The notes under the pieces were generated by a model. That model was not told the origin of the DNA and made no database searches. It worked only from the letters and a program-made list of their open reading frames with translations. From a virus: DNA of 64,000 bases. The translations under genes were made by a program, and so were the position numbers. The stretch spans positions 1 to 64,000 of the IMG/VR virus record IMGVR_UViG_3300020190_000036; one strand, 5' to 3'. The number at the start of each line of letters is the position of its first letter. The first letter of the stretch is position 1. Below are positions 10,213 through 62,654 of this stretch, one piece after another.

Positions 10213-11341
10213 GAGTCGTATCTATTCCTGCTTCTGTGATTCTTATTGAATCGGCTTTTGTTTTGGGCCCCACTGGAGTTGGTGAGTTTACGTCAATATC
10301 ATTGAGTGCTAAATTTCTAATAAGCCAACTAACGGGGTACCCATATGGGTCCTGCAAGTGTTTTTTTCTGAATCTTGAAACATATGCTTTTGCGTCTCTC
10401 TGGCGCCTTTCACCCATTAGATAGTCGTTGATGAACATGAGAGCCCCATCCCATCCATATGAAGAATATCTTGCTATCAATTTCTCAATATCAAATTCCG
10501 GCCACCACCGGCGTTGAGCGTCTATCTGAGGGAAGCACTCAAACAACCGGTCATAGAATTCCGGCTCTGTCGCAACAACATCCCCTATTCGTCTAATTGC
10601 TACGGAGTGAAGGGGAATGCCAACCCTGGTGTTGCTGCCGGTAAGTGCTGCAAGGTCGTAATACTCACAAAACTCTGCTCCGTGTTCCTCTGTTATAAAT
10701 TTGAATACATCATTCGTGTTCCAGTCATAAATTATCTTTGCAAACTTCAAAGGGATTCCCGCCTTGAGTTTGTATGGAGTAACTATGTAGTTCTCGTGAA
10801 GTTTCTGAACAATAGACCTATAGCGAACCATTGATTCACTAGCACGAACTCCAGTAATAAAAGCGACATTGCCCCTCTTCCCTTGCATGGTGTAGTAATC
10901 GGTTTGTTCGGGCAATGAGACATCATGAGTCAGACCGAAGTGCTCCCCAGTGATTGCCCACGGTGGGATATCCCTCACCAAGCGACCAATCTTTTTTCTG
11001 GCGTTACTCCATAAAAGTGTTGTCACCCTAGAACCAAGAACCCATATTTCTGCCGGATACGGAAGGCAATACCATTCCATATCCACCCAGTCATATTGAC
11101 GTACACGCTCTGTGTATTCAATAACGGTTGGACTTACCATCTCTTCATCTCTGAAAATAACTTTTACTGGCCCAAGACAACGCTCTTCATGAACTTCTTT
11201 GGCAAGGTAGAGAACCGCAGTGCTGTCCTTGCCTCCGGAAAATTGAATACAGACGGTGTCGAAGGTGTCGTAAACGTGTCTAATTCTTTGTCTTGCAGCC
11301 TCGACGCATGACATGTCTAAAAACATTCTCTGCCTAGTCAT
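10202..11341 (-). CDS. PAPS reductase-like / IbrA-type ATP pyrophosphatase domain protein
   Basis: This 379-residue protein has the PP-loop FSGGKDSTA near residues 33-41, the ATP-binding signature of PAPS reductases, DndC and N-type ATP pyrophosphatases. It then has FITGVRASES, a motif shared with PAPS-reductase-like proteins (compare 'GvR..ES..R'). The C-terminal region has WW, GYPVSWLIRN and several aromatic residues, as in IbrA-like proteins with an extra C-terminal domain. It lies next to the ParB-like gene, the pairing seen for IbrA/IbrB. Possible roles are sulfur chemistry on DNA or tRNA, or host reprogramming; the sequence does not decide. Its ATG overlaps the stop of the upstream small gene by one base. 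Confidence 0.8.
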   Translation of the reverse strand: MTRQRMFLDMSCVEAARQRIRHVYDTFDTVCIQFSGGKDSTAVLYLAKEVHEERCLGPVKVIFRDEEMVSPTVIEYTERVRQYDWVDMEWYCLPYPAEIWVLGSRVTTLLWSNARKKIGRLVRDIPPWAITGEHFGLTHDVSLPEQTDYYTMQGKRGNVAFITGVRASESMVRYRSIVQKLHENYIVTPYKLKAGIPLKFAKIIYDWNTNDVFKFITEEHGAEFCEYYDLAALTGSNTRVGIPLHSVAIRRIGDVVATEPEFYDRLFECFPQIDAQRRWWPEFDIEKLIARYSSYGWDGALMFINDYLMGERRQRDAKAYVSRFRKKHLQDPYGYPVSWLIRNLALNDIDVNSPTPVGPKTKADSIRITEAGIDTTHEA

Positions 11342-18268: not shown

Positions 18269-20371
18269 ATGGCTTGGAATTCTCCGGTAAATAAATCCCT
18301 TTCCAATGAGAGTAATAAAGAAATAGGCCCAGGAGCACCAGTAGCCAACAATCCCGGACTTGCGGGGAGGGCATATAGGGATTCCTGGGACATTGAAAGG
18401 GCATACCGAGAAGGGATGCAGAAAGTCACGTGGGTGGCTAGATGTATCGACGCAATTGCCGGGAACCAGGCAAGACTCCCAATAATCCTCAGAAAAGATA
18501 ACTCTCCAGATGGCGAGATTCTTTCAAAAAGGGCTTCTCAAAACTCCGAGTTAATGGAGATTCTCAATACAAAATCGAACATCGGAGAAAACGCCTTCAT
18601 CTTCAGATACAGACTTTCGGCACAGATACTTCTTGGAACTCGCGGTGCATTTGTGGAGAAGGTGCGAGGAAGGGACGGCGGGATAGTTGGACTGAACCTT
18701 CTTCCCGCACAGTCAACGGCGCCAATACCAGATGCAAAAAAGTTTGTTTCTGGTTATGAGGTGACAATGCCGTATGGACAAAAAGTCATACTGAAAAAAG
18801 AGGACGTAACCTGGATTAGAAGGCCTCATCCACTCGACCCATACCTGTCCTTAACTCCCCTTGAATCAGCTGGCGTTGCTATAGAGATAGAAAATCTAGC
18901 GAAGCTCTACAACAGAAACTATCTCCTGAACGACGGCAGACCTGGCGGGCTGCTTGTTCTCCGTGGGGAAATAGATGATGACGACAAAGAAGAGCTGCGC
19001 AGCAGATTCAGGGGGAACCTATCGCGTGTTGGATATACATCCGTTATCTCTTCTGATGATGGCGTTGATTATGTAGACACATCCGCAAATCCAAGAGACG
19101 CTGCCTACATACAGATGAGGCAGTTAACTAAGGAGGAAATTCTTGCATCATTCGGAGTTCCAGAGTCTGTTATTGGAAACGCTTCCGGTAGAACGTTTAG
19201 CAATGCTTCGGAAGAGATTCGTGTCTTTTGGATGGAGACGATGCTTCCCCATTTGGAGATTCTTTCACGGGGTCTAGACGAACTAGACGATAAGAACTAC
19301 GTCGATTTCGACACAAGCGAAGTTCCAATCCTGATGCTCTACAAGCAGGAAAGACATCGCTATTTGATGGATGAATTCCAAAACGGCCTAATCAGCAACA
19401 ACGAGTACAGAATTCTTTCCGGAAGAAAAGAAACAGAGTCAGACCTTGCTGATTCGCTATTGCTCAATCCAAACCTGATTCCGATTGCCAATACTAAGAA
19501 GAAAATGGAGGATAAAGCTTCCGCGACCGTCCCTGGTGCTCCAGGTATGCCGGGGATGCCTCCGGGTATGCCGGGGATGCCCCCAGGCATGCCGGGGATG
19601 CCTCCGGGTCCAGAGCAGATGGTGCCAGGTGCCGATGGCCAACCACTTGACCCAAATACTATGGCTGGGGCAATGGCGGAAGTTACGGCGCAGGGTGGCG
19701 GGGAGTTGGCACAAGCGCCGATACCGGGTCTACCCACTCCCCCGCAGCCAGAAGCAATGCCAGCAGGAATGTCAACGGGAATGGCACCAGTTCCATCGGG
19801 AGCAGCCTCAATCGATAATGCGGATATTCAGACCAAATCAGAGCAAGAAGTTGAGGTGCAGAGATGGGAAGAGATTCTCTATCGGAGCATAGAGAGGGTT
19901 CTTGAAAGACAGCAGCGCGTTGTTCTCGAGAAGTCGAGCGGTGCAAAGGCCAAAAAAGCACTTGTGGCCGGAACTATCGATATTCCATCAATACTTCACT
20001 CCGAGACATGGGATAGACAATTTGAGGACGACATCAAGCCGGTCATAACAGCAATAATCAAGGAATCTCAGGCAGCATCGGGTGTGAAGATTTCTAGGAA
20101 ATCCTCCAAAAATCATTTAATTGAATCTGATGTTTCTGTTCAGGTTGAGTCTCAGATGGAGAGAATCAAGTCGATTAACTCCGAAATGACATCAGAAATA
20201 ACAAATATCATGCTTGCCTCTCTTTCAGTTATCGGTGAAGAGCAGAGAGTGAGCACATTTAGGTCGAATATCGTCTCGCTGTACACCAATTTGCTTGGGA
20301 AAAGACTCCCAGAGATTGCCGAGGACGAAACTCGTAGGGCCTGGCTATTCGGCCAACACTTAACTAGATAA
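18269..20371 (+). CDS. portal protein, HK97-type, with long C-terminal extension
   Basis: This 700-residue protein has an HK97-like portal core over about residues 45-390. It contains WVARCIDAIAGNQARLPI, NLLPAQSTAPIPD and LTPLESAGVAIEIENLAKLYN, followed by FGVPESVIGNASGRTFSNASE, the 'fgvP..llg' motif of portals. The core is followed by a Met/Pro/Gly repeat linker near residues 425-450 and then a second helical domain of about 170 residues rich in Glu and Arg. Portals are usually 400-500 residues, so the extension is notable. The portal forms the ring at one capsid vertex for DNA entry and exit. A KSSGAK sequence is present, but without the hydrophobic residue of the repeated cleavage-like motif. 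Confidence 0.92.
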   Translation: MAWNSPVNKSLSNESNKEIGPGAPVANNPGLAGRAYRDSWDIERAYREGMQKVTWVARCIDAIAGNQARLPIILRKDNSPDGEILSKRASQNSELMEILNTKSNIGENAFIFRYRLSAQILLGTRGAFVEKVRGRDGGIVGLNLLPAQSTAPIPDAKKFVSGYEVTMPYGQKVILKKEDVTWIRRPHPLDPYLSLTPLESAGVAIEIENLAKLYNRNYLLNDGRPGGLLVLRGEIDDDDKEELRSRFRGNLSRVGYTSVISSDDGVDYVDTSANPRDAAYIQMRQLTKEEILASFGVPESVIGNASGRTFSNASEEIRVFWMETMLPHLEILSRGLDELDDKNYVDFDTSEVPILMLYKQERHRYLMDEFQNGLISNNEYRILSGRKETESDLADSLLLNPNLIPIANTKKKMEDKASATVPGAPGMPGMPPGMPGMPPGMPGMPPGPEQMVPGADGQPLDPNTMAGAMAEVTAQGGGELAQAPIPGLPTPPQPEAMPAGMSTGMAPVPSGAASIDNADIQTKSEQEVEVQRWEEILYRSIERVLERQQRVVLEKSSGAKAKKALVAGTIDIPSILHSETWDRQFEDDIKPVITAIIKESQAASGVKISRKSSKNHLIESDVSVQVESQMERIKSINSEMTSEITNIMLASLSVIGEEQRVSTFRSNIVSLYTNLLGKRLPEIAEDETRRAWLFGQHLTR
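19541..19610 (+). repeat. Pro-Gly-Met repeat in portal gene
   Basis: About three and a half copies of an 18-21 base unit encode alternating Pro-Gly-Met-Pro. Third-position differences between copies show they have drifted. The repeat forms a flexible linker between the portal core and the C-terminal domain. Confidence 0.8.
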
Positions 20372-20471: not shown

Positions 20472-21041
20472 ATGTCAAAATCCTTCGTGAATCCTGAAAT
20501 TCAGTACAAAGCTGCCACTCAGGGTGCAATAAACCTAGACGAAGCCAGGGGCATAGTCGAGTGTTTCGTGGCAGGAATTGGCAACAAGGACTCCGTTGGC
20601 GATGTTTGCGCCCCTGGGGCATTCGCCAAAAGCCTATTGCGCCGGAAACCAAGAGTTGTGTGGGGCCATAACTGGAACGACCCAATCGGCAAGGTTCTAG
20701 AAATTTACGAAGTTCCAGCAAACGACCCAAGACTTCCGAGCAAGATGAGAGCAGCGGGTATTGGTGGGCTCTACGCAAAAGTTCAATTCAACCTAATGTC
20801 AGAAAAAGGCAAGGAAGCATTTGCGAGTGTTGCATTCTTTGGCGAAGAGCAGGAATGGTCAATTGGGTATAAGACAATCAACGCAAAATTTGACCAGCAG
20901 ATGCAGGCGAATGTTCTATTTGAGGTAGAGCTTTACGAGGTGAGCCCTGTTCTTCACGGTGCAAATCAATTGACTGGAACAATATCTGTTAAGTCGGATG
21001 AAAATAATGCCACCGCAGTGATGGAAAGGGCTGTTAGTTCC
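20472..21041 (+). other. HK97-type prohead protease domain (residues 1-190)
   Basis: The domain has GIVECFVAGIGNKDSVGD near residue 27, the usual 'G..a......D..gd' opening of the family, then PGAFAKSL. VVWGHNWNDPIGK carries the catalytic His66 with the following 'P.G' turn. EEQEWSIGYKT holds the nucleophile Ser130, followed by EVELYEVSPVLHGAN, the typical 'l.EvS.v..gAn' closing motif. This family (S78-like) cuts scaffold and capsid proteins and itself during head maturation. All catalytic positions I can check are present, so the enzyme is expected to be active. Confidence 0.92.
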
Positions 21042-24000
21042 ATCGCGAATGCCGATAGTGAAAATTCTCCGGAACTAAAAGAGGTTCTATACGCACTCAG
21101 AAATATTGCTTCCATGATTTCCGATAACGAGAAGCATGAGTATGGAATGCCCTCAGTAATGCCTTCAGCAAATAGACAACCTATTCCATCAATGCCAAGC
21201 CCTGCTCCGTCCACGGCGCCGAGGTCAGTAGTCAAGCCAACAAGACCATCTATCCCTGAAAACCCCATGGTAGTTGCTCTTCGCCGTGAGCTGGTCGCAA
21301 GAACTGGGTCGAACATAATTGTCCGCTCTGCTGGAGACAATGTTGTTGTATTTGACCGAATTATGAGCGACGGTTCGTCTTGCACGTACAGACTTGCGTA
21401 TCACTATGCAGATGGTGAATTCATGTTTGGTAAGCCAGAGAAGGTCAACGCGCAGACCGTTTACACTCCCGAGACTCCTGGGGCACCAGGAGATGCATAC
21501 TGGGGAGACGATTACTCAGAAACACCAAAGTCATTGCAATCTGGTGATTTTTGGAGTGCCGGTTTTTATAGCGAGCTGACCTCGCAGCCAGACACAAGCA
21601 ATGCCCTCATGGAGGTGATAGAGAGTCTTCAACATCTAATCAATGAAAAATCGGAATACGTAATACCAGTAGAGCCGGCAGAGGCTTTTGAGTTAAGGCA
21701 AATGATTGACCCAGTTCTCGAGTATTACAACGCTGACGCCAGAGTAACCGAGGAGGGGATTGTAGTTAAGTCAGCACACAATCCAGAGCTAATTGAAGCT
21801 CTTGATGTCGCGACTAAGTCCGTGCTGGGAAAAATCCGAAGGGGCATTGGCGCTGGAAGGCGTCTTGATGCTCCAAACATTGGTGGCGGTAAAGGTCGTA
21901 GCAGAGCAGCGCGAGCAATTGGCGCAGCAACTGGCGGTGTAGCTGGAAATCTAGACCCTTCAAAAATATCTCTCAACGACCCGGACGGAGACGGGTGGGC
22001 CAGAGAGGGTTCAAGAAATCCTGTTTGGGTTGGGTTTAAAAAAGCAGTAGAAAAAATTGCGGGCAGCGTTGGCCGGAAGAAGAAGCCATCAAAAGACAAG
22101 CAAAGGGCCCGCTCTGCTGTTAATGCAGATAAACCCGGTCCGCCGAGAGTAAGGTCCGGAGCGCCGTGGGATGCTCCATTAACTCCTGCTCCGCCTCGTC
22201 CTAGCAGAGTGACGCTTACAGATGATGCTGGAGCAAGACTAAGAGAACTCGGCAAAGAAAGAGCCAGAGAGCTTGGCTTTGACAGAAACATTGACCCCGT
22301 CCTTCCAAGACCGCGCAAGAAACTTACAAACCAAGTATCCGCTGCCCCACGCCCTGGAGAGGGCAGAAGTAGGGCATCGGGCGAATCAATTGCGAATGCA
22401 ATACGTCGCTCAAAGAGCGCACCAAACCCTGTCCTTGGCCAGGAAATGGCAAATGATGTAGCTAAGTTCGGCTACCCGGAAGAGATGTCAACGGATGACC
22501 TAGTGAGAACGGTCGGCAAATTTAGAGGAGAAATAGCCAAGGCTAGAGAGAATCTAGAAAAGATTCAGGCAGATAGAGACTCTGGCAAAAAAGTATCTTC
22601 TTCAGAAATCGGAAAAGCTAGACAAAGTGTCGACTCCCTCCGTCAGAGAGCGTCTGTTTACTCATCCGAAATATCAAAGCGCGACAAAATAAAAGGTTCC
22701 GACAGATTCTCTTCAGGAAAAGCCATTACCCCAGAAGACAGACGCAAAAGAAGACATGCTCCGCTGGGTACAACTGGAGAATTTGACCTTCCAGACGAAG
22801 TTGCCACAAGAAATAAGCACGAAGAGTTTGTAGCAGAATTTAGAAAAAACAACGGATTTTGGCTGGATATCCCAAGAGAGGGAACCGTCGCTTCAATGAA
22901 TACGTCGGAGGAGTGGCAGAGGGCTAGAGAAATAGCAACAAACGTCGGGATTCTTGAGTGGCAGGAAAATGAAAGAAATAGAAGGCCGAAGGGTTTTAGC
23001 GAAAAAGCGCGTTCGTCCATGGACTACCTAACATGGTTCGGTGGATATACAAAGCGCCTTGGTGACTATCTCGATAGGGAAGAGTCCAGTGAAAATGTAA
23101 CCGATGACGAACTTGCTGGTGCAAGGGCGGCAGTACTAGATGCATTGGCATTCAGAATGGCAACGCCAACTGGTCCAGAAAGCCAAAATACGCTTGCGGC
23201 AATGCTCGCAGACGCCGGATTCGGTCCAAATGGAAAACACGAAAAAGCATTCGGTGGGCGCAAGAAATCCAGCGTTGTTGGATTCTCTTCTGGTCGCGGA
23301 AACAGAGTAGACACTCGAGTGCTAGACCAACTTATGAACGATGGTAAAGAGGTCAGCGACGATGACGTGAAGGCAATACTTATGCCTAACGCCGGCATAT
23401 TGATGCATCCAGAATATAACGACAGAACCGGCGAGGTATCTCTTGGCTGGAAGAACGTCCTAGAATCCTCATTAGAGGACAGGAGTTTCAATAGGGGTTC
23501 CCAGAGGGCGATGATTCGCCTTGACGATGAGGGTTATCAAAAATTTACAGAGGCACTAGAAGCAGCAAATGGAGAGCTGACCCCATCGGACGGCCTGCCA
23601 TCTAGCTCAAGAAGCGTAAGGGACAGGGAATACCCATATTCATGGGGCAAGTCTCGAATGGGGGCTTTTTCATCTGGGCGCAAGTATCCACCAGAAATAG
23701 AAGACGAGCTTGTATTCGATTCCGAACTGGGCGGCAATAGAGCAGCAGACAGAATCAATACCGAAAATGTCGACATGGAGATAGTTCCATCTTCCGATAT
23801 TGGCCTTGATGGTCCAGATGATGGAGCATGGACTGTTGTCGGCATGTACAGGGGAGAAGACTATGGCTCCGTCGACTACATCTATGAACTAGATACTTTT
23901 GATTCGGTAGAAGAAGCAAGACGCTTCATAGAGACATTTGACAGATTGATAGATGAGGAAATTAGACCTGGCGACCCAGATTTCTTCCTCGATATAGATA

Positions 24001-27000
24001 ACTACAACAAAGACAACAAAATATCCCTGGATGATGACCTTGACTCCGCTATATCTAAGGCTGTTCAGTCAAGAAAAGATAGAGAGAACGACCCATACGA
24101 CTATGGCAGTCTCCTGTCATCAGTTCTTTCCGACAGGTCATTAAACCTTTTTGGTGATGGAGAATCAAGATTCTCTTCCGGAAGAAACAAAGCAGAAAGA
24201 CGCCAATCTGTCAAGAGAGTCATGGCAGAAGATATGGCCGATAGAGAGGTCAATCTAGGAATACTTTCTCGCCGCATGAAGGGTGAAACCCTGGACGAAG
24301 TAGGTAGAGCATACGGAATAGACAGGGGAACAGTCCGCCAAATGGAGATGCGCGAGATGAAGCGTCTCAGGGATGGAGCAACACCAAGCGAAATACTTGC
24401 CTACAGAATGACAGGCCTCACACTCGACGATATGGGCAGAATGCTCGGCATGTCCCGTGAAGAGGTTAGAAGAATCGAGTCTAGAGAAATAGCACGGATG
24501 AGACTCGGCGGTCGCGACGGAAGCGACGCGATATTCGAGGGTCGTAAAGCTGGTCTAAGCCGCAATTCAATCAAAAAGCTAACTGGCATGTCTATGGATG
24601 ACATAGCGACTAAGGAAAGAAAAGGATTTGAGAGGGCCGTAACACGAGAAGATGTCTCTCATCAGATATTTGACAAATACGTAACTAGATTCGGCGAAGA
24701 CGAACTAACTGATGCGGAACTTGCGGAGGAGCTAGGGGTTAGCGAAAGAATTGTTTCCGAAGTTCGCGCGGGGGCAAAGAAAGACATACTCGATGCCCGT
24801 CGTGGCATGGACGAACACTACAGCAGCCTTCCGGAGCCAACCGACGAAGAGCTTCAGGAGATGGCAGACTACTATGCAAATGATTTTGCTAGAGAGCAGG
24901 GTTTTGGCTCCTATGCGGAGTATAAGGATTATGTTTCCAGTGTCGGCAGGGAAGACGATGGAGAGAGGCTGTCTTCTGGAGCAGGTAAGCGCGACCTTAC
25001 ATTTAGTCAAAAAGTTGGTCAAAGAGTATTTGAGGAAGCAGAAAAGATAGCCAAAGAAGACAATAGGGACATTTTCGACACCCTGGATTCGCTCGTCTTT
25101 GATAAGCGCATGGATTCAACGAATCGTAGAAAAGATTTCGATGTAGCAGAGATGTATTCTCACATTAATTCCCTTCTTTTCCCAGAGGGTGCTAGAGAAA
25201 GCAGGAAGCGCAGACTCTGGAGAAGAGAAAGACTCTCCTCTGGCAGAACCGGTAGAGGTCGGAAGAATCGGCGACAGGGCAAATCAAATCAGGGAGCATG
25301 GTCAGAAGAGGACCTTCAGAGATTCCGCGATAGAAATGTTCTACGCGCCAAAACTCGTCCCGGAAAGCGCAAGGATGGCCCATCAGCGGAAGAATTCTCT
25401 TCTGGACGCAAGAGAATAGATACGGCCGGTAGTTCAGCGCTGACTGGAGCATTCTACGATGCCGACAACAAAAGGCTTGTTGTCGGATTCAACAAGGGTG
25501 GGGTATATGCCTATGACGGCGTAACCCCAGAAGACATAGAAGAGATGCACAATGCCGAAAGCAAAGGTGCAGCTATGGCTTCTATCAAGAAGAAGTACAA
25601 AGGCGTAAGACTTTCAGAAGCGGACGACAGCTTTAAGGCCACCAAACAGGGTGACGAATGGGTTGTAAATCCAGATAACGAAACGACTTACTCAATATCC
25701 GAAGACGGTGGAGAGTTCTTTGTTCTGAGAACTTCTGGAAGCTACGCACGCGATGGCGGCCAGTCTGGAGATGAGTACTACCATCCAGAGTCGTTTAAGA
25801 ATATGGACTCCGCGATGAAGTGGGTCGAGCAGGACTTCCTGCCATCAATAACTCCAGAACCGTGGGACGAAGATGACTACGATGTAGACAGGCTTTCATC
25901 TGGTGGGCCAGCTCGCGCCGCAGCCCAGATGCAATTTGATACTCGTAGAAGTAGAAAAGCGACAGAAATGACATACGACCCGCAAGACGGTCGTGTTGGA
26001 ATAACTTATAACGATGGAAAGCAGAGATTCTTCTCCGAGGTGCCTTACGAGGTTGCTAGGGCGGCAGGCAATCCATCAAAAGATATAGACAACTTCATTG
26101 ATGACCTAGAGCGCGGGAAAGTGGGCAAGGAGGGCGGAAGATTTAGTTCCGGTGCAAGCTCGGTGCCTCGCACTGACTTTGATTACTCCTATCAGAAGTT
26201 CCCACCGACAGAAGAGCAGGCAGTCATTGCGGATGCGGTGGCGACTGGCGAGAACGTAATTGTAAGAGCATTCGCCGGCACTGGCAAAACTTCTACTCTT
26301 GTAATGATTGCTGAGAGACTGAAGCGTCAGGACCCAAAGAAGAAAATCGTCTACATGGCGTTCAACAAGGACATCCAGCTTGAGGCTGAGGGAAAGTTCC
26401 CTGGCAATACAGAGTCACGAACAGGCGACTCCATATCGTGGAACTGGGTCAAGCAGACAATGGGCGAAGCCTTCACGGACAGAATGAAGGGCAACCCACC
26501 AGAAAGAGTGAAGTCAAAGGGAACAAGAAACAAGGATATATCTATTCATTTCAAGATTAAACAAATGGAGCATCCGGACGGGCTAAAAGATGAGAAAACC
26601 GGAAACCCCATAGTCCTTGATGCTGTTGATGTTACAAAGCTTGTAAGAGAAGCGGTTAAAGAATTCCTTATTTCGGAAGACGATGAGATAGGCACACAGC
26701 ACTTTAAGAAAATACAGAATGTTCCACCAGCTCTTTTGGGACATGCCAAAGCTATATGGGATGACATGAACGACCCTGATGGCGTGATGAAATTGGATAA
26801 CTCCGTATTCACCAAGATGTGGGCACTATCTAGGCCTCAGCTCAGTGACGGTGTCGGTCTATTCAAAGGAAAGCCATCAGTAATATTCTTTGACGAAGCT
26901 CAGGACATAAACCCAGTAATGGCAAAAGTCATGCGGGAACAGAACATCCAAGTTATATTTGTTGGAGATAGTTACCAGGCTATTTACGGATTCCGTGGAG

Positions 27001-30000
27001 CATCGGACAGTCTCGAGAAAGCGGAAGCCACATATGACTTGCCTCTCACTGGGTCATGGAGATTCGACAGCAAGATAGCTGGATACGCAAACAGATTCCT
27101 AGCGTACATGGGTTCAAAAGATAGAATTCGTGGCGTAGGAAAGCCGGGTGATGGTGTTGTTGAACCAGAGTCGATGGTTGACCCAGATGCAATTCTGACA
27201 AGAAGTAACGGTGGGGCGCTACGTGCAGTTGTTGAGCAAATAAAAAACGGAAGAATCGTAGGGACTTCGGAAAACTTCAAGAAAGACCTAACGAAATTCG
27301 CATGGCACGCAATAAGTCTCAAGGCCGATAAGCCAGTAAAAAATCCACATCCAGAACTAGAGGAATTCTCTTCATGGCAGGAGGTTACAGATGCAGCCAA
27401 CGCCGAGGATGCAAGCCCTCGACTAAGAATGCTTGTACAGCTATTCAATGACACACCAAACATTATCGAGATACTGGACCAAGTCGTTGTCGGTGGCAAG
27501 CTCAGGGGGGAATCTGGTGGAGGCTCCGGCAAGAGGATTCTTCCTAGCGAAGTAACAGATGGCTTTGAGATGTCCATAGACCCAAGCAGTCTGGGTAAAT
27601 GGGCAGGAGACAAAAAGACATCCGTTTTGTACAAAAATGGAAAACTGTTCTTTCAGTTGCCATACACAGCAAAAGGCTCATCTGGTGATGACAGCAAAAA
27701 GAGCTGGATTAAAGAAAACTTAGGAAAAATCAATCGCTTTGAGTATGGCAAGCCAGAAGAGACTGGCGGCAAGTTTGCAGTATTCGTAGACGCAACACCA
27801 GAACAGGCTGCAAAACTTCTCTCCGGAATAACATCGGGTGATGCTCAGGAAGTAGACGTCATGGTAATGACGGCACACAGGTCAAAGGGTCTTGAGTTCG
27901 GAAAAGTTCAGCTTTACGGAGACTTCCCAAGACCAAGAAAGAACAAGAATACCGGTGAGATGGAGTACCCAGCTCCGGAAGAGCAAAGACTTCAGTACGT
28001 TGCATCAACTAGGGCCATACGCGAACTAGACCCAGGCCCAACTTCATGGATATATAACGAAACATCTGAAGATGACGAAAGCCCAGGCGTACCTAGTGGT
28101 TTCTCGTCTGGCGCAAAAGGTAACCCAATGCCGAGCGCCATTGGTAAGGACATGGTTCTAGAAGACGGCGGCACATACGAAGACAACATGTTTAGGGGCA
28201 CGTACGTTGCCGACTTTAATGGCGGGAAGATGGTAATCCAGCCGGCAGGCAGGGATTCGTGGGCTGTTTACAGGGCAGACTTTATGGGCGGCGAAGATGG
28301 GCCTTCTTACAACTTCAGCTATGGTCCACCAACGGACGAGTCTGAGTTCAGTTCACTCGCAGACGCATACGAGCATGTTCTCAATTATGTAAAAGACAAC
28401 GACATAACGCTTGACCAGATGGATGGAAGTCGCCGCTCAAAGGGGAGTGAGTCCTTCTCGGTGGCAAAAATCGGAAACTCCGGTTCTGGAATATCTGAAA
28501 GATTTAGCTCAGGTCGCAAGAATGCCGATAAAAGATTAAAGGCAGCTAGAAAATTTTCAAGGGGGGGAGATGCCAATGATGATGGTCGTCTGTCTTCTGG
28601 AAAGAGAGATTCTGACGAAGGGTTCGCATCGGGCCGAATACTGTCTCGACTTCGCGGCCGAGAAGAAACCACTCAGAAAGAAGCAGATGAACTCTATAAA
28701 TGGGCGGCGGAAGCAAGCAAGAAGCGTCCCGACGACGAATACTTGAGTCGCGTTGTTGGTAAGGGCTCAGAATACGGAGAAGGTCTAGACGAAAAAGACT
28801 TCGAATACATACGCCAACAACAGCTCATTGATTTTATAGTCGATAACGACCTGCACCTACGCGACCCGGAAGGAGCTGGTCGAATATTAGATATATGGAC
28901 CGGTGAAAGCCGGGGAAGAATTAAAGATAAAGACTGGGAGGCCCTGTCGGAACTCCGATACCGGCGCCAACAGAGAGAGGACGACGCATTTAATCGTGAA
29001 GCATTAAAGGACGTTGCCGAATCGCAAGGCATGCCACGTGACGACCAGCAAAAACTTGCCATTTTTGCGTGGGCGGCTTCTCGATTTGGGAAATATCCAC
29101 TGGTAGAAGACGTCGTGAGAGGTGGGAGAACAAACATCCCAAACAGCCTCGACGACAGAGAATGGAAATTTCTTAAAACCGAATGGCTCAACAGCGACGC
29201 TCCAGACCCACAACCACTCAACACTAGAATGACCAATGGTGACATGGGCCCAGATAGGTATCTAGAACAAGACTATCTAGCGTACATGCGCGAGAGCGGT
29301 ATGACCGGCTTGCTGGAAAAGTACCAGACGCGAGGTGGACTGACCGGCAAAGATTGGGCTTATGTAAAGAAGTTACACGACGACCTTGGCCCAAGGGGAT
29401 GGCGAAATCCAAAGAGTGCCTCATACAGGGGAATAACTAGAAAAGAAAGAAGGGAAATTGACAAAAAAACTGGACGCCTGAGTGATTGGGATGTTCTGAC
29501 CGAGGCACAAAGAGCTTCACTAGAGAAGCGCAAGGAAAAATTCAACCTTACAGAATCAATGGCCAACGCGCTTTCTTCAGGCCGTACCACCCCGAATAAG
29601 CCCAAACAGGATGATGGTCGTTTGTCTTCTGGCGGTGACCCTACTCCTGAACAGATTGAAGCGGAAGACAGAGAAAATAGGGCTGACTTCTACAAGAACA
29701 GCTCTGGTCTTTATGAAAATGAACTTGCCGAATGGCTGGATGCAAATCCAAGCAAGACAGAAAAAGACTATGAGTCAAGCCCTGAATTTGCAGAGAGACT
29801 TGACGATATGGACAGCATCATGGGCGATTTCGCCGATGCTGAGGCAGAACGTCGTCTAGATGATTATGCAAATCGCATGTCGTCCGGGGGAAAGCCACCC
29901 CGTTATCCACGACCCCCCACGCTCGGAGCGTTTCTCGGTTCTACGGATGACTTATTCAAAAATGTAGATTCATGGGAAGATTTCAGGAATATATACAACG

Positions 30001-33000
30001 ACCAAGAAATCATATTTTTTGATTACGAAACTACCGGTTTAGTATTTGATGAATTCGGCAGAGCGACTAGCAACGGAGCACCAGTTCAGTTTGGTGCAGT
30101 AAAAATTAAAAACGGCAAAGAAATAGGCCGAATAAACCTATTCATGAACCCCGGCGAGTCGCTCGGAGAATGGTCGCGAAACAATCTCAAAGACATAGAC
30201 GGAAATCCACTAACAGATGACTGGCTTGGTGGACAGATTTCCGTTGAAGATGCTCACAAACAGCTAATCGAGTTCGCTGGGGCTGATGCAATATTCGGAG
30301 TTCAAAATGCAACGTTTGATAAAGCTGTTTTGGACGATGTGTTATCAAAAATGAAATCGGACTGGAGGCCGTCAGGCTACATAGATACACGAGAGCTCGC
30401 AAGCCTTGTGCTCCCCAGATGGACACCAGAAACAGAAGATGGGCCATTTCAGACAAACAAAGATGGTGAAAAGGTCCCTTCCTCAAGTCTTGCCGCAATT
30501 ACTGAATATCTTGACGTTGAGCTTGGAGATGGCCACCACAACGCAGATGTTGATGCTTTCGCAGCAAGCGAAGTAATGAGAAAAATGATTGATGGGGCAA
30601 TCGAAAATGATTGGTCGCGAGATGCCCTATCAAAAGAAAAACGTGATTCTCGTCATGCGGAAACGATTGCAAAATTTGAAGAGAGCGTTCGGCAATTTGA
30701 GTCAGAATTAAGCCAGTATGGTCTATCTTCTGGGCGCCGCCAGCGGCCATCTGATGAGGAGATTTATAACCTCAGAATGTCTGGCCCAACCCTAGAGGAA
30801 GTCGGGGAGAAGTATGGAATGACGCGCCAAGAAGTGCGCGCTGCAGAAATGCGCCATATCAGGAAAATGCGTGATGCCGACTTTGAGGCAACTGGGGCAC
30901 AGACATCTAGAAGAGAGCGTCGTCTATCTTCTGGAGGGAGACCCACACGCGCCGGTTCAGCAAAACAAAGAGGGAAAGTAGTCCTCACAAGCCAAGAACC
31001 AGGCGGTAAGTGGACTGACGTACCAGAAAACCAACTAAGTCGAAAAGACGATTTCTTTGACAATGAAACAGCTTCAAGAATATTGGATAACCCACTAGAG
31101 AATTACAACGACCAAACCGGCTGGCCAGTAGCTGCTAGGGATTTCTTCCAAAGCCTAGTTTTGCAGCAAGAAGGAAGAGACATTCCTGTAATGGATGAAG
31201 ATGGAAGGTTCACGCCTGAAGGACGCAACCAAGTCAAGAAGATGCTTTTCGGCTCTAATGAAGCAAGGGAAAAATTCCTAGACCAAATAGAGTCAGGCGA
31301 TGTATCTCATATGCAGGCCGTTGCGGCTATCACAATTCTCGAAAAGCTTGGCGACGATAATACAAAACTGGGCCCAAGGGGTGCTTCAGACCACATGTTG
31401 GAAACATTTGGGTTTAAGTCTGCACCAGTCTGGGTTTCTGGCCTGGATTCAAGAGACCCCGACTACGACCTTATAAGAGGAGAGGTCAACTGGACTCCGT
31501 TGTCCGAAGAGCAGTGGCTTGATGAGGTCAAGCAGGCGTATGTTGATAACAAAAACATAACCAACTATGTTGGAAATAGAAGAGATTGGGTTACAAAGAA
31601 TAAGGGCAAGTCTGAAAAAGACTACGAATCAAGTCCTGAATTCATCGCAGACGCTAAGCGCGCATACTTGGAGAACAAGAACACCATTGGTCCTGCAGAA
31701 GTCTACTCTCACCCATTCACACATTTCTATGGGATGCGTGAAGAGCAAAAAGATACAGTCAAGAAGAATTGGCTTTCCCAGAACCCTGGCAAAACAGACG
31801 CTGATTACGACAAAGCAATGTCGTGGGACGGAGAGGGTGACCCTGACAAGTCAACGGAAGCTGGAAGTTGGGGATTTGGAGACCCACGCAGTCTTGGTGG
31901 GAAACCATCTACACAGGCAGATGGTGCTTCTAGTAAGAGGCCGACTTCAGCACGGGGTACGACTAAGAGGCCGACTTCAGCACGGGGTACGACTACTTCT
32001 TCATTGCCGCCGGAAACGACACAGAAGCTATTCCAAGCCATAAAGCTCGATACGATTCTGTCGGCGCTTGGTATAAAAGACGATGTTACCAGAGAAGAAC
32101 AAAGAAAGAAGCTTTCTGAACTTATTGGATTTACGATAACGGAGGACTCATTCAAGGGCTACAAGCGCACGGGTCCGAGGCCAAGAATTATTCTGGAACT
32201 TCTACGCAGGGGTCACATTAAGGACCTAGATTCGCTACGCGAAGCCGACAGGACAGATGCAAACCTGGGGAACCTTGTCAATCAAGCAAGAGACTCAGTT
32301 TTCATTGCTACCGCATACGGAAGACTGCGTGAAGCAGCAAGAGGTGCTGGTTTGTCTGAGGATTCATTTGGAGCAAGGCTTTGGGGGAGACTCGGGAAAG
32401 AATACGAAGACCATGTTATTAATGGTAAGGGGCAGCCAAGAAGCAGGATGGCTGACGGTGCAATTCCAAAAACGTTTAACCTAAGCAAACTAGACCTTAT
32501 TGGGGAAACGGAACTGTCAGAACTTGTTGACGGCCTAAATGCAATGGCTGAATCAGAGGGCTCTTCTGCTCGGTTTACGATTGACGATATATTCCCCAAG
32601 AACGATAGAGGTTACATCGATGCATTCGGTGAATCAAAGATAAGAATGAGCAGCGGAAAACCATCTACGCAAAAGGGACAGAGATTCGTTGCCAAGCCTA
32701 AGGGGAATAGGCTAACCAGTGCTGCAAATGACACTGCTGAAATGAGATTCTCCTCGGCGGCTAGACCAACGTACAGAACACCTGGCGGAGGAATCGACAA
32801 AGATGCAATGTCTGCAGATATTGAAGATGCGATTCGCGGTCCTCGACTTGGCGCTGTTGCAATAACTTCTGCAAATGCAGAAACGGTCGGCAGAGAGCAA
32901 GTAGATAATCTCACTAGAGCCATAACTCTTCGTCAGCACATAGCAGACATGTTCCCAAGCGTTGTTAACGATAGAACACAGGTCTCCTACGATATAGAGC

Positions 33001-34682
33001 CTCTCCTGACGGAGCAAGGCATAAGTCCAAAAGATGCAGAAAAACTGACAGACCTAGTTAACGACCTAGATGAATACATCGACGGGATAGTTAAGCAGTT
33101 CGAGGACGAGGGTGACAAGCTAGAAAGCGGTCTGCGCGAAATGACAGACATGCTCGACGAGGTATCTGAGCTACGTAAGTATCGCAAAGAGACAATCGAC
33201 AAGTATGGCGAAGATGACGCAAGAAACTTGATAGACAGACTTGACGAAAAGATAAATAAACTTACGACATCAATTGATGACAAGTATCAGGCTACCATAG
33301 GTAGCAACAGAACAAACATGGCAAAACTTCGCGATGAAGCGCTTGCCTTGGTTGACGAAAATCCAGGGTTTGACAGGCCAAAGAAGGGCGGCGACAAGCC
33401 GCGCCTATCAAGCGGCGCCAACTCCCTGTCGTCGAAGCTGATAGGCATTGAAATGGCCATGGGCCGAGCCGAAGAAGGCGGTCTACCTAAATACAAGCCG
33501 GTCAGCAAGATGGACATGAACCTTCCAAACGGAACGCGCCTGTCTTCTGGCAAGGCTGACGAATGGTACGAGAACCTGACAGCGAAGCTTGTAGAGCAGA
33601 TTGAAAAGATTCAGGCATCGGGCGGGGACAAGTGGGAATTCCCATGGCATCGAACTGGGGCCATGCCGAAGAACGCAATCAGCGGCCACGTTTTCTCTGG
33701 TATGAACCCATTTGTCCTGTTGCTTGCTGCTGATGAAAAGGGTTACTCAACACACCGCTGGGCTACATACAAGCAGTGGCAGAGCGTGGGTGGAAATGTA
33801 ATGAAGAACGAAAAGGGCCAGACACTCCTGAAGCCAGTTTTCAAGAAGGTTAAGGACCCAGACACAGGTAAAGAAGAGACAAAGCTTGTCAACTGGAGCG
33901 CATATACCGTGTTCAACGTTGCCCAGGTGGAGGGAATAAATCCAGAAGATTACGACGACAAGCCCAAAGACCTTCTTGATGAGGCAGCCAGAGTGGAGAG
34001 GGCCGAAAAAGCATTCGCCATAGTCGGTGCAGACATAGAAACCGGAGATGGCTCACGTGCTTACTACAGCCCGTCAAACGATAAGATAGTTATGCCGCCG
34101 TTTGCTTACTTCAAGACCCCAGAGGGCTACTACGCGACCCTTGGCCATGAGCTTGTTCACTGGACTGGACACTCCTCCAGACTTGATAGGCCAAACATGA
34201 ACCGCTTCGGCACCCCTGCATACGCTCGGGAGGAATTGGTTGCAGAGCTTGGCTCGGCTTTCTTGATGGCCAATTTCGGCATGGCTGCAGAGCCACGAGA
34301 AGACCACGCTCACTACCTGGCCAACTGGCTAAAGGTTTTGCGCGAGGAGCCAAAGGCCCTACAAGAAGCAGCAAGAGAGGCCCAAAAGGCGTCGAAGCTT
34401 CTCATCGAAAAGATGAGGGAAGTGCTTGAGGGTGCCGAAGTAGCCGAAGAAACGCTTGATGATGTTGACGGGACGAAGAGCGCATGGGTCGGAATGTCTG
34501 ACGACATTGGGAGAGAATCACTGCTCCAGGTTGCAGGCATTCTTCCCGCATACCTACGCATGGAGGTGGAAGCGGCCATTAAAAGCACCGCCCCAGGGGG
34601 ACCCCTATCAACTAAGGTTATTAACAGAATTTCAAAAACAATTGAACTTCTAGAGACATTCTCAAAGCAAAAAGGTATTTGA
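20472..34682 (+). CDS. giant prohead protease-cargo polyprotein (4736 aa)
   Basis: One uninterrupted 4736-residue frame, preceded by a strong AAAGGAG site, encodes an N-terminal HK97-type prohead protease followed by about 4500 residues of unrelated units. Pieces recognised: protease (1-190); a Ca-loop-like DPDGDG segment near 505; HTH repeats (about 1238-1503); KTSC-type domains (1646-1720 and 1812-1894); UvrD-type helicase (1895-2547); DEDDh exonuclease (3140-3421); HTH (3422-3488); coiled coil (4097-4315); ArdC antirestriction (4361-4736). A motif [RGAE]-[FLM]-S-S-G-[RKGA] recurs from residue 745 to 4360 and brackets these domains. Prohead proteases are normally 150-250 residues. It sits in the usual protease position between portal and capsid. 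Release of the units by the protease is inferred. The coding is continuous, so an assembly error is unlikely. Confidence 0.85.
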   Translation: MSKSFVNPEIQYKAATQGAINLDEARGIVECFVAGIGNKDSVGDVCAPGAFAKSLLRRKPRVVWGHNWNDPIGKVLEIYEVPANDPRLPSKMRAAGIGGLYAKVQFNLMSEKGKEAFASVAFFGEEQEWSIGYKTINAKFDQQMQANVLFEVELYEVSPVLHGANQLTGTISVKSDENNATAVMERAVSSIANADSENSPELKEVLYALRNIASMISDNEKHEYGMPSVMPSANRQPIPSMPSPAPSTAPRSVVKPTRPSIPENPMVVALRRELVARTGSNIIVRSAGDNVVVFDRIMSDGSSCTYRLAYHYADGEFMFGKPEKVNAQTVYTPETPGAPGDAYWGDDYSETPKSLQSGDFWSAGFYSELTSQPDTSNALMEVIESLQHLINEKSEYVIPVEPAEAFELRQMIDPVLEYYNADARVTEEGIVVKSAHNPELIEALDVATKSVLGKIRRGIGAGRRLDAPNIGGGKGRSRAARAIGAATGGVAGNLDPSKISLNDPDGDGWAREGSRNPVWVGFKKAVEKIAGSVGRKKKPSKDKQRARSAVNADKPGPPRVRSGAPWDAPLTPAPPRPSRVTLTDDAGARLRELGKERARELGFDRNIDPVLPRPRKKLTNQVSAAPRPGEGRSRASGESIANAIRRSKSAPNPVLGQEMANDVAKFGYPEEMSTDDLVRTVGKFRGEIAKARENLEKIQADRDSGKKVSSSEIGKARQSVDSLRQRASVYSSEISKRDKIKGSDRFSSGKAITPEDRRKRRHAPLGTTGEFDLPDEVATRNKHEEFVAEFRKNNGFWLDIPREGTVASMNTSEEWQRAREIATNVGILEWQENERNRRPKGFSEKARSSMDYLTWFGGYTKRLGDYLDREESSENVTDDELAGARAAVLDALAFRMATPTGPESQNTLAAMLADAGFGPNGKHEKAFGGRKKSSVVGFSSGRGNRVDTRVLDQLMNDGKEVSDDDVKAILMPNAGILMHPEYNDRTGEVSLGWKNVLESSLEDRSFNRGSQRAMIRLDDEGYQKFTEALEAANGELTPSDGLPSSSRSVRDREYPYSWGKSRMGAFSSGRKYPPEIEDELVFDSELGGNRAADRINTENVDMEIVPSSDIGLDGPDDGAWTVVGMYRGEDYGSVDYIYELDTFDSVEEARRFIETFDRLIDEEIRPGDPDFFLDIDNYNKDNKISLDDDLDSAISKAVQSRKDRENDPYDYGSLLSSVLSDRSLNLFGDGESRFSSGRNKAERRQSVKRVMAEDMADREVNLGILSRRMKGETLDEVGRAYGIDRGTVRQMEMREMKRLRDGATPSEILAYRMTGLTLDDMGRMLGMSREEVRRIESREIARMRLGGRDGSDAIFEGRKAGLSRNSIKKLTGMSMDDIATKERKGFERAVTREDVSHQIFDKYVTRFGEDELTDAELAEELGVSERIVSEVRAGAKKDILDARRGMDEHYSSLPEPTDEELQEMADYYANDFAREQGFGSYAEYKDYVSSVGREDDGERLSSGAGKRDLTFSQKVGQRVFEEAEKIAKEDNRDIFDTLDSLVFDKRMDSTNRRKDFDVAEMYSHINSLLFPEGARESRKRRLWRRERLSSGRTGRGRKNRRQGKSNQGAWSEEDLQRFRDRNVLRAKTRPGKRKDGPSAEEFSSGRKRIDTAGSSALTGAFYDADNKRLVVGFNKGGVYAYDGVTPEDIEEMHNAESKGAAMASIKKKYKGVRLSEADDSFKATKQGDEWVVNPDNETTYSISEDGGEFFVLRTSGSYARDGGQSGDEYYHPESFKNMDSAMKWVEQDFLPSITPEPWDEDDYDVDRLSSGGPARAAAQMQFDTRRSRKATEMTYDPQDGRVGITYNDGKQRFFSEVPYEVARAAGNPSKDIDNFIDDLERGKVGKEGGRFSSGASSVPRTDFDYSYQKFPPTEEQAVIADAVATGENVIVRAFAGTGKTSTLVMIAERLKRQDPKKKIVYMAFNKDIQLEAEGKFPGNTESRTGDSISWNWVKQTMGEAFTDRMKGNPPERVKSKGTRNKDISIHFKIKQMEHPDGLKDEKTGNPIVLDAVDVTKLVREAVKEFLISEDDEIGTQHFKKIQNVPPALLGHAKAIWDDMNDPDGVMKLDNSVFTKMWALSRPQLSDGVGLFKGKPSVIFFDEAQDINPVMAKVMREQNIQVIFVGDSYQAIYGFRGASDSLEKAEATYDLPLTGSWRFDSKIAGYANRFLAYMGSKDRIRGVGKPGDGVVEPESMVDPDAILTRSNGGALRAVVEQIKNGRIVGTSENFKKDLTKFAWHAISLKADKPVKNPHPELEEFSSWQEVTDAANAEDASPRLRMLVQLFNDTPNIIEILDQVVVGGKLRGESGGGSGKRILPSEVTDGFEMSIDPSSLGKWAGDKKTSVLYKNGKLFFQLPYTAKGSSGDDSKKSWIKENLGKINRFEYGKPEETGGKFAVFVDATPEQAAKLLSGITSGDAQEVDVMVMTAHRSKGLEFGKVQLYGDFPRPRKNKNTGEMEYPAPEEQRLQYVASTRAIRELDPGPTSWIYNETSEDDESPGVPSGFSSGAKGNPMPSAIGKDMVLEDGGTYEDNMFRGTYVADFNGGKMVIQPAGRDSWAVYRADFMGGEDGPSYNFSYGPPTDESEFSSLADAYEHVLNYVKDNDITLDQMDGSRRSKGSESFSVAKIGNSGSGISERFSSGRKNADKRLKAARKFSRGGDANDDGRLSSGKRDSDEGFASGRILSRLRGREETTQKEADELYKWAAEASKKRPDDEYLSRVVGKGSEYGEGLDEKDFEYIRQQQLIDFIVDNDLHLRDPEGAGRILDIWTGESRGRIKDKDWEALSELRYRRQQREDDAFNREALKDVAESQGMPRDDQQKLAIFAWAASRFGKYPLVEDVVRGGRTNIPNSLDDREWKFLKTEWLNSDAPDPQPLNTRMTNGDMGPDRYLEQDYLAYMRESGMTGLLEKYQTRGGLTGKDWAYVKKLHDDLGPRGWRNPKSASYRGITRKERREIDKKTGRLSDWDVLTEAQRASLEKRKEKFNLTESMANALSSGRTTPNKPKQDDGRLSSGGDPTPEQIEAEDRENRADFYKNSSGLYENELAEWLDANPSKTEKDYESSPEFAERLDDMDSIMGDFADAEAERRLDDYANRMSSGGKPPRYPRPPTLGAFLGSTDDLFKNVDSWEDFRNIYNDQEIIFFDYETTGLVFDEFGRATSNGAPVQFGAVKIKNGKEIGRINLFMNPGESLGEWSRNNLKDIDGNPLTDDWLGGQISVEDAHKQLIEFAGADAIFGVQNATFDKAVLDDVLSKMKSDWRPSGYIDTRELASLVLPRWTPETEDGPFQTNKDGEKVPSSSLAAITEYLDVELGDGHHNADVDAFAASEVMRKMIDGAIENDWSRDALSKEKRDSRHAETIAKFEESVRQFESELSQYGLSSGRRQRPSDEEIYNLRMSGPTLEEVGEKYGMTRQEVRAAEMRHIRKMRDADFEATGAQTSRRERRLSSGGRPTRAGSAKQRGKVVLTSQEPGGKWTDVPENQLSRKDDFFDNETASRILDNPLENYNDQTGWPVAARDFFQSLVLQQEGRDIPVMDEDGRFTPEGRNQVKKMLFGSNEAREKFLDQIESGDVSHMQAVAAITILEKLGDDNTKLGPRGASDHMLETFGFKSAPVWVSGLDSRDPDYDLIRGEVNWTPLSEEQWLDEVKQAYVDNKNITNYVGNRRDWVTKNKGKSEKDYESSPEFIADAKRAYLENKNTIGPAEVYSHPFTHFYGMREEQKDTVKKNWLSQNPGKTDADYDKAMSWDGEGDPDKSTEAGSWGFGDPRSLGGKPSTQADGASSKRPTSARGTTKRPTSARGTTTSSLPPETTQKLFQAIKLDTILSALGIKDDVTREEQRKKLSELIGFTITEDSFKGYKRTGPRPRIILELLRRGHIKDLDSLREADRTDANLGNLVNQARDSVFIATAYGRLREAARGAGLSEDSFGARLWGRLGKEYEDHVINGKGQPRSRMADGAIPKTFNLSKLDLIGETELSELVDGLNAMAESEGSSARFTIDDIFPKNDRGYIDAFGESKIRMSSGKPSTQKGQRFVAKPKGNRLTSAANDTAEMRFSSAARPTYRTPGGGIDKDAMSADIEDAIRGPRLGAVAITSANAETVGREQVDNLTRAITLRQHIADMFPSVVNDRTQVSYDIEPLLTEQGISPKDAEKLTDLVNDLDEYIDGIVKQFEDEGDKLESGLREMTDMLDEVSELRKYRKETIDKYGEDDARNLIDRLDEKINKLTTSIDDKYQATIGSNRTNMAKLRDEALALVDENPGFDRPKKGGDKPRLSSGANSLSSKLIGIEMAMGRAEEGGLPKYKPVSKMDMNLPNGTRLSSGKADEWYENLTAKLVEQIEKIQASGGDKWEFPWHRTGAMPKNAISGHVFSGMNPFVLLLAADEKGYSTHRWATYKQWQSVGGNVMKNEKGQTLLKPVFKKVKDPDTGKEETKLVNWSAYTVFNVAQVEGINPEDYDDKPKDLLDEAARVERAEKAFAIVGADIETGDGSRAYYSPSNDKIVMPPFAYFKTPEGYYATLGHELVHWTGHSSRLDRPNMNRFGTPAYAREELVAELGSAFLMANFGMAAEPREDHAHYLANWLKVLREEPKALQEAAREAQKASKLLIEKMREVLEGAEVAEETLDDVDGTKSAWVGMSDDIGRESLLQVAGILPAYLRMEVEAAIKSTAPGGPLSTKVINRISKTIELLETFSKQKGI
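24183..24980 (+). other. HTH-rich unit of the giant protein (residues 1238-1503)
   Basis: The unit between motifs at 1233 and 1499 contains two consecutive helix-turn-helix segments of sigma-70 region 4 type. MKGETLDEVGRAYGIDRGTV and MTGLTLDDMGRMLGMSREEV are each followed by a RxxExREMxRMR recognition-type helix. A third related segment (LTDAELAEELGVSERIV) follows about 100 residues later. This suggests a DNA-binding cargo piece, possibly acting on host or phage promoters after entry. It lacks a visible sigma region 2. Confidence 0.65.
25407..25904 (+). other. KTSC-domain unit (residues 1646-1811)
   Basis: The first 65 residues match the KTSC pattern: SSALTGAFYDADNKRLVVGF, then GGVYAYDGV, EEMHNAESKGAAM and IKKKYKG. 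The KTSC fold is a small domain of unknown function found in phages and bacteria. The remainder is an unrecognised alpha/beta stretch. Motifs flank the unit at residues 1641 and 1807. Confidence 0.7.
25905..26153 (+). other. degenerate KTSC-like unit (residues 1812-1894)
   Basis: ATEMTYDPQDGRVGITYNDG followed by FSEVPYEVARAAGNPSKDID resembles the same KTSC layout (strand, strand, 'VP..v', helix) in a shorter form. It lies between motifs at 1807 and 1890, immediately before the helicase unit. Two adjacent KTSC-type units suggest domain duplication inside the polyprotein. Confidence 0.45.
26154..28112 (+). other. UvrD/FBH1-type superfamily 1 helicase unit (residues 1895-2547)
   Basis: All main SF1A motifs are present. 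The Q-motif region is FPPTEEQAVI. Walker A is AFAGTGKTST (Lys1939). Motif Ia is MAFNKDIQ. Walker B is FFDEAQD (Asp2141, Glu2142). Motif III is FVGDSYQAIYGFRGA. Motif IV is LTGSWRFD. Motif V is MTAHRSKGLEF. Motif VI is QRLQYVASTRAIREL. Unwinding and strand processing on DNA are expected. An RFSSG at 1890 and a GFSSG at 2543 sit exactly at its ends, so it would be released as a complete 653-residue enzyme. Confidence 0.92.
29889..30734 (+). other. DEDDh 3'-5' exonuclease unit (residues 3140-3421)
   Basis: IIFFDYETTGLVFD supplies the first Asp and Glu (Asp3184, Glu3186). FGVQNATFDKAVL supplies the middle Asp. GHHNADVDAFA supplies the His and last Asp (His3356, Asp3359). This is the DnaQ-type proofreading or nuclease fold. 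Motifs at 3135 (RMSSG) and 3417 (GLSSG) bracket it. It could trim ends or degrade host DNA. Confidence 0.9.
30735..30935 (+). other. short HTH unit (residues 3422-3488)
   Basis: A 67-residue unit between motifs at 3417 and 3484 contains one sigma-region-4-like HTH (MSGPTLEEVGEKYGMTRQEV) with an AEMRHIRKMRD helix. It closely resembles the repeats in the 1238-1503 unit, so an HTH module appears twice in the polyprotein. Confidence 0.6.
31935..31994 (+). repeat. perfect 30-base tandem repeat
   Basis: Two identical 30-base copies encode Lys-Arg-Pro-Thr-Ser-Ala-Arg-Gly-Thr-Thr twice, in a linker of the 574-residue unit between motifs at 3484 and 4058. Perfect identity suggests recent slippage. 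Confidence 0.9.
32760..33416 (+). other. coiled-coil unit (residues 4097-4315)
   Basis: This unit is mostly long helices with heptad spacing (DEYIDGIVKQFEDEGDKL, then DEVSELRKYRKETIDKY). It lies between the FSSA variant at 4092 and the RLSSG at 4311. A structural or oligomerising role is likely, and no enzyme motif is seen. Confidence 0.55.
33552..34682 (+). other. ArdC-type antirestriction unit (residues 4361-4736, C-terminal)
   Basis: WYENLTAKLVEQIEKI, then PWHRTG and SGHVFSGMNPFVLLL form the ArdC N-terminal single-strand DNA-binding domain. VNWSAYTVFNVAQVEGI follows. The metalloprotease-like half has YYSPSNDKIVMPPFAYF and GHELVHWTGHSSRLDR, with the zinc-binding HELVH at 4559-4563 and a third ligand in AREELVAELGSAFL. 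ArdC proteins from broad-host plasmids protect incoming DNA from restriction enzymes. It is preceded by an RLSSG at 4356, so cleavage would free exactly this protein. Confidence 0.9.
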
Positions 34683-62162: not shown

Positions 62163-62181
62163 CCGAACAATCAGAGGAACA

Positions 62182-62566: not shown

Positions 62567-62571
62567 TACGC

Positions 62572-62645: not shown

Positions 62646-62654
62646 CTGGCGCAA

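Follow-up and report, generated by a model that had tools for sequence, protein, structure and literature searches.

From the genes for portal protein, TerL, tail sheath and HK97-type major capsid protein (MCP) on an IMG/VR contig of 79,794 bases, the source of the DNA analysed here, a stretch of 64,000 nucleotides referred to as the window, is deduced to be a myovirus-like tailed phage. Members of this phage group are uncultivated and known from metagenomic contigs. Sequence past the 64-kb window was viewed in the near-identical 119-kb contig G001. MAG matches (Gammaproteobacteria, Phycisphaerae, Acidimicrobiia) appear to stem from stray phage contigs and were not taken as evidence of a host. 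Five tRNA genes (Leu, Pro, Leu, Lys and Arg; 62083–63315, + strand) are located at the right edge of the window. The gene of a giant protein, here called protein A, comes right after the portal gene, with the MCP gene further downstream on the same strand (portal/capsid module). The genes relevant to the following are:

1–4245, − strand: putative tape-measure protein, running off the left edge and following sheath, tube and chaperone-like genes
18269–20371, + strand: portal protein (Pfam PF04860), a motif-free context gene
20472–34682, + strand: protein A, an S78-led giant putative polyprotein of 4736 aa, with ATG start and open end to end
36364–42948, + strand: protein B, the second giant protein of the virion module, with three motif copies
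48754–50085, + strand: HK97-type MCP (PHROG 10, PDB HK97-fold matches), without [FLM]SSG

The N-terminus of protein A matches Pfam Peptidase_S78 (aa 28–172, E 1.7e-8, over the cut-off) as well as PHROG 3244 ('head maturation protease'). Neither His66 nor Ser130 varies among 28 aligned relatives, which bears out the original prediction of a prohead protease with these two residues. The encoded protease sits inside the motif-bearing chain itself. The predicted 22 motif copies in a frame of 4736 residues, two of them with one substitution, were also counted correctly: 20 copies exactly match [RGAE][FLM]SSG[RKGA], and GFASGR (aa 2717) and RFSSAA (aa 4092) deviate at one position each. In 2000 composition shuffles of protein A, [FLM]SSG occurred at a mean of 0.32 and a maximum of 5, by which chance or composition as source of the copies is rejected (20 versus 0.3). 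The 22 copies split the protein into 23 segments. As had likewise been claimed, complete foreign domains lie between them, matched by Pfam and PHROG: sigma-70 region 4/HTH, KTSC, a UvrD-type helicase (aa 1914–2519), a DEDD exonuclease (aa 3181–3368) and an ArdC N-domain plus zincin (aa 4365–4635; PF08401 and PF18818 over the cut-off). The features of protein A, all on the + strand, are in order:

20553–20987, +: Peptidase_S78 prohead protease domain (Pfam PF04586; His66 codon 20667–20669, Ser130 codon 20859–20861)
22704–22721, +: motif 1, RFSSGK, end of the protease core
23280–23297, +: motif 2, GFSSGR
23664–23681, +: motif 3, AFSSGR
24168–24185, +: motif 4, RFSSGR
24270–24371, +: cassette of sigma-70 region 4-like HTH repeats, best stretch (Pfam PF04545)
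24966–24983, +: motif 5, RLSSGA
25230–25247, +: motif 6, RLSSGR
25392–25409, +: motif 7, EFSSGR
25431–25580, +: KTSC domain cassette (Pfam PF13619)
25890–25907, +: motif 8, RLSSGG
26139–26156, +: motif 9, RFSSGA
26211–28028, +: UvrD-type SF1 helicase cassette, full unit, motif-free inside (Pfam; PHROG 1967, E 1.7e-79)
28098–28115, +: motif 10, GFSSGA
28500–28517, +: motif 11, RFSSGR
28587–28604, +: motif 12, RLSSGK
28620–28637, +: motif 13, GFASGR, one substitution
29568–29585, +: motif 14, ALSSGR
29619–29636, +: motif 15, RLSSGG
29874–29891, +: motif 16, RMSSGG
30012–30575, +: DEDD (RNase_T/DnaQ-like) exonuclease cassette, with a homologue in protein B of relatives G004, G007 and G018
30720–30737, +: motif 17, GLSSGR
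30921–30938, +: motif 18, RLSSGG
32643–32660, +: motif 19, RMSSGK
32745–32762, +: motif 20, RFSSAA, one substitution
33402–33419, +: motif 21, RLSSGA
33537–33554, +: motif 22, RLSSGK, 8 residues ahead of the ArdC domain
33564–34376, +: ArdC N-domain plus MPTase-PolyVal zincin cassette, anti-restriction (PF08401, PF18818; PHROG 7245, residues 6–307 of 324)

The 4736 residues hold only 3 cysteines. An acidic D-x-DGDG element is found at aa 507 (window position about 21990); it also occurs in one fourth protein and in a small gene before the MCP gene (G004, G009, G028) and is perhaps a common calcium-binding or targeting element. As a common packaging tag it was dropped, its distribution being too scattered.

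Relatives were sought with the N-terminal 185 residues of protein A as query, yielding 587 related stretches in viral contigs, of which 80 were fetched. The protease relative is thus encoded on 587 viral contigs, and almost every long one among those fetched carries the giant frame; every chain that could be followed for at least 1500 aa has several motif copies. S78 is present in every chain found, which by itself is weak evidence, as S78 served as search bait. Portal-to-MCP modules were compared in 14 relatives. All 14 have protein A, and giant protein B is present wherever the contig extends to its place, with 8 to 20 motif copies in A and 1 to 9 in B, the basal lineage G022 apart. In the latter, A comprises about 1000 aa with zero motifs and B has one motif; the chain of basal L056, L057 and L075 is similarly short, closed at 1002 aa and without [FLM]SSG. 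The marine relatives L165 and L166 encode S78 as a stand-alone protein of about 440 aa (74–75% identity; locus 9953–11293) with no giant extension; neither giant A nor protein B was found in them, and their tape measures are motif-free. This stand-alone gene offers a naturally occurring control for how the polyprotein originated. Another marine relative, L167, carries eight copies of a variant of the type G[LF][ASPR]S[RSH][RN] (GLASRR-like) in an A protein of 2698 residues, where 0.04 are expected. G009 encodes a fourth motif-bearing protein of 1216 aa with an exonuclease cassette. The protein A frame of G009 is broken at an A7 run just past motif GLSSGRN (L108:10262–10274), which would be due to either a sequencing error or programmed slippage. 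In G028 (L118/L119), protein A is split between contig ends with no exact terminal overlap seen, either an artefact or a true split.

The homologues with motifs between domains, for which a search had been proposed along with the original prediction, were found. Of the 128 motifs in nine A proteins, not one is located within a Pfam envelope, compared with 30.2 expected (P about 7e-16, a guide only since motifs are treated as independent and relatives share ancestry). The ArdC domain sets in 7–8 residues past a motif in seven of seven cases, and in the window's protein the alignment to the stand-alone anti-restriction family PHROG 7245 begins right at the motif (family residue 6, aa 4361). An internal ArdC cassette is followed by a motif at most 50 aa after the zincin, whereas the chain-terminal ArdC cassette has no trailing motif. 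Equally consistent is the UvrD unit, flanked by motifs on both sides in 7/7 with none inside and the next one 22–36 aa after it. In an AlphaFold model of protein A aa 3040–3520, the segments of pLDDT <50 number four and match the positions of the four motifs, with folded units in between. A recurrent site is therefore found between functional units and not inside them, as expected for a polyprotein (0/128; low-confidence linkers in the AF2 model). No enrichment of Met (start codon) after the motif was found, indicating that the units are not separately initiated.

Beyond protein A, the motif is encoded in protein B and in the left-edge frame, the latter being assigned as tape measure from its length, its place in the gene order and a peptidase-like stretch at the C-terminus; in G001 this frame is complete and open with 1693 aa. 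The corresponding sites in the window are:

40672–40689, + strand: motif RMSSGK in protein B
41077–41094, + strand: motif RFSSGG in protein B
41734–41751, + strand: motif RFSSGA in protein B
38017–38031, + strand: HEIAH zincin-like site in the protein B core (HExxH plus later Glu invariant in 13 relatives)
4117–4134, − strand: motif RLSSGA near the tape-measure N-terminus
2188–2205, − strand: motif RLSSGA in a Pro/Gly-rich linker of the tape measure

In the other ORFs of G001 (116-kb view, 3.3 kb left out), just two [FLM]SSG were detected, WFSSGSD and VLSSGSV, which corresponds to chance level and lacks the motif's flanking residues. Portal proteins and MCPs of the 14 modules are motif-free as well, with one QLSSGS in the G022 portal as sole exception, and [FLM]SSG is absent from every MCP checked in the relatives' portal-to-MCP modules. 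In the window's MCP (48754–50085), weak candidates for the delta-domain cut are the conserved L-[NA]-x-G-[RK] around residue 115 along with [FY]-[ST]-A-[LIM]-P around residue 143. The motif as capsid delta-domain site was rejected, as MCPs are devoid of [FLM]SSG; looser candidates around the HK97-equivalent junction gave no clear order of preference. For the zincin-like domain of protein B, neither a Pfam family nor a Foldseek match to its moderately confident AlphaFold model was obtained; the core is possibly a new peptidase family.

Over 421 aligned instances, identity of the SSG core is 0.893, compared with 0.460 for the flanks and 0.602 for other Ser/Gly residues. The residues around the core differ between lineages: R-[LF]SSG prevails in the window's phage, G003, G004, G007 and G018, G-LSSG in G008, G009 and G019, and K-LSSG in G017 and G026. 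Protein B carries the flavour of its own genome's protein A, and the tape-measure motif follows suit (RLSSGA in the window, RFSSGA in G004, RLSSGA in G007 and GLSSGK in G009). Covariation of this kind across proteins is the pattern expected of one recogniser drifting with its sites. At the DNA level, 249 motif copies are encoded by 143 distinct 12-mers, with serines of both the TCN and AGY type, and the sequence comparisons taken together support a processing-like site under protein-level selection. TCT-TCT accounts for 35% of the motif serine pairs versus 10% elsewhere, suggesting that the joints are also copied by recombination or shared descent, which adds to the conservation signal.

Exchange of cassettes at motifs is evident from the relatives. 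Where homology at ≥75% identity between relatives breaks off, 70 of 108 breakpoints lie within 20 aa of a motif, compared with a random mean of 24.4 and maximum of 40 (500 trials). The order of cassettes varies, with ArdC placed before the helicase in G017 and last in the window's protein A. The exonuclease cassette of the latter (aa 3139–3423, alignment numbering) matches protein B of G004 and G018 motif to motif, and G009 has an A cassette sharing 79% identity with a cassette of the same genome's B, the similarity ending at motifs. The non-redundant set of 389 cassettes falls into 65 clusters, including 30 singletons.

Motif enrichment, inter-domain placement, conservation, covariation across proteins and cassette exchange at motifs are thus direct observations. 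In our reading, the motif very probably serves as processing site of a modular virion polyprotein. The best explanation, which we hold to be quite probable as a whole, is an S78-headed modular virion polyprotein whose motif-bounded cassettes would be separated by the phage's own protease. The S78 protease with an extension of roughly 550 aa would be the constant leading part, followed by a row of cassettes for takeover proteins (ArdC/zincin, helicase, exonuclease, HTH/sigma-like, KTSC and many unknowns), each bounded by [RKG]-[LF]-S-S-G-[RKA], where the virion protease would cut. Cutting of protein A would free about 20 separate proteins. Judging from gene position, these units are likely packaged and ejected with the DNA. 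If one enzyme recognises the site in A, B and tape measure, the flavour would drift in step within a lineage, and recombination at motif joints would let cassettes be acquired, discarded, reordered and transferred between A and B. More tentatively, a single phage protease may maintain a lineage-drifting, virion-wide cleavage code for protein A, protein B and tape measure and thereby a plug-in platform for ejected cassettes.

With respect to the cutting enzyme, we are inclined to favour the N-terminal S78 protease, which heads the very chain bearing the sites. The MCP is the classical substrate of S78 proteases, and its lack of [FLM]SSG counts against cutting by S78. As a tail protein, the tape measure would not be expected to encounter a protease enclosed in the prohead; hence, its motif does not fit a prohead protease cutting its own cargo. 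Moreover, S78 does not require this site, as the motif-free L165 and L166 demonstrate. Accordingly, of the originally predicted self-processing scaffold-cargo, the motif-bounded units and a processing-like site have stood up, while the tape-measure motif and the motif-free S78 lineage are at odds with it. A motif in the tape measure would be accounted for if the same polyprotein were cut by the zincin-type metallopeptidase of the protein B core, in the infected cell or on entry. HExxH and the downstream Glu of this core are invariant in 13 relatives, including the basal lineage with one motif in B; protein B is missing exactly where the motif is missing, and zincins have been proposed as processing enzymes of polyvalent proteins (Iyer et al., PMC5512222). 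Still, the B zincin seems a rather unlikely processor considering that neither a Pfam family nor a fold match to its moderately confident model identifies the domain as a peptidase, that S78 heads the site-bearing chain and that a single B-less lineage is a small sample. The MPTase-PolyVal domain as general processor was rejected, G008 and G019 keeping 8–10 motifs without it (partial records).

Binding motifs, too, are typically short, exposed, conserved and lineage-specific, and prohead-targeting signals are known from T4 and P1 internal proteins (PMC9024508), so that the motif might serve for docking or packaging by being bound to a head protein, with the giant chain staying intact. However, the motifs reside between domains and not near one end, the C-terminal ArdC cassette has no trailing copy while the mid-chain one does, and a head signal is not expected in a tail protein such as the tape measure, making docking quite improbable. 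Very improbable is a DNA-level recombination joint or a flexible linker left by shuffling that is functionless in the protein: the breakpoints at motifs and the over-used TCTTCT would agree with it, but not the diversity of 12-mers and serine codons, nor the SSG core kept at 89% where flanks drop to 46%, nor a lineage-specific flavour that covaries in three proteins, one of them encoded on the opposite strand. That the units are made separately by internal starts or frameshifts, the fusion being incidental, is hardly credible; the broken G009 frame right after a motif would be in line with it, whereas the missing Met enrichment and the long open chains in nearly all relatives oppose it.

The closest precedent for the S78-headed polyprotein is provided by the polyvalent proteins, multi-domain proteins of phages and conjugative elements for which processing by embedded peptidases has been proposed and which have been likened to eukaryotic viral polyproteins (PMC5512222). 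Like them, protein A combines unrelated effector domains (helicase, exonuclease, HTH, KTSC, ArdC and zincin) in one virion-associated chain and possesses ArdC-N and MPTase-PolyVal (PF08401, PF18818), the latter domain missing in some relatives. In contrast to the 2–15 domains of polyvalent proteins, protein A has 23 segments and further differs by its S78 head, its repeated lineage-specific boundary motif and a dispensable MPTase-PolyVal; neither a repeated cleavage motif nor an S78-led chain was found in the accessible portion of the polyvalent-protein description (Iyer et al. 2017, PMC5512222). A literature text search covering few subscription papers likewise revealed no phage polyprotein with a repeated cleavage site, polyvalent proteins coming closest. 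The earlier statement that no phage polyprotein of this design has been described is thus nearly right, in that polyvalent proteins precede it but, in the part of their description considered, without repeated motif and S78-led chain. The repeated-motif, S78-led chain extends the known polyvalent proteins and is not a new category.

One phage protease acting on many virion proteins at a short motif is established in SPN3US, phiKZ-like phages and T4 (PMC10052503, PMC5694885), the SPN3US prohead protease cutting 14 sites in nine substrates (PMC10052503). These substrates, however, are separate genes mostly losing an N-terminal propeptide, whereas protein A, one chain including the protease, would be cut into many mature proteins, and the SPN3US site logo differs from the SSG motif (PMC10052503). 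Anti-restriction is shared with the Dar system of phage P1 (DarA, DdrB), whose proteins are carried in the head, some of them processed, but are encoded by separate genes with no repeated inter-domain site described (PMC9024508, PMC5512222). Nearest in portal (42–45%) and capsid protease (38–42%) among cultured phages are the actinophages Gordonia GMA6, ChisanaKitsune and Brevibacterium Cantare, in which the protease is a stand-alone gene of about 420–505 aa beside separate genes. At the DNA level, protein A has no near cultured relative, and no homologue of the protein B core was found in the phage records searched. Streptomyces phage Gilgamesh gp48 (L005 18718–32592), an unannotated protein of 4624 aa, is located right after the portal gene like A; the same design was rejected here due to the lack of a repeated motif. 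Gilgamesh encodes its protease as a separate gene.

If the proposed processing holds true, a genuine polyprotein strategy based on a modular cleavage code has arisen in tailed phages, within a lineage that public metagenomes represent by hundreds of contigs. The ways in which many entry-phase proteins are delivered together, polyvalent proteins are separated and a tape measure is processed would then become open to testing. The shared site would allow swapping of whole cassettes between polyproteins without loss of release, and it could serve as a tool for freeing fused cargo in engineered phage heads. Used as a parser, the motif resolves giant 'hypothetical' proteins into units, here about 65 cassette clusters, many of them unknown and plausible anti-defence factors.
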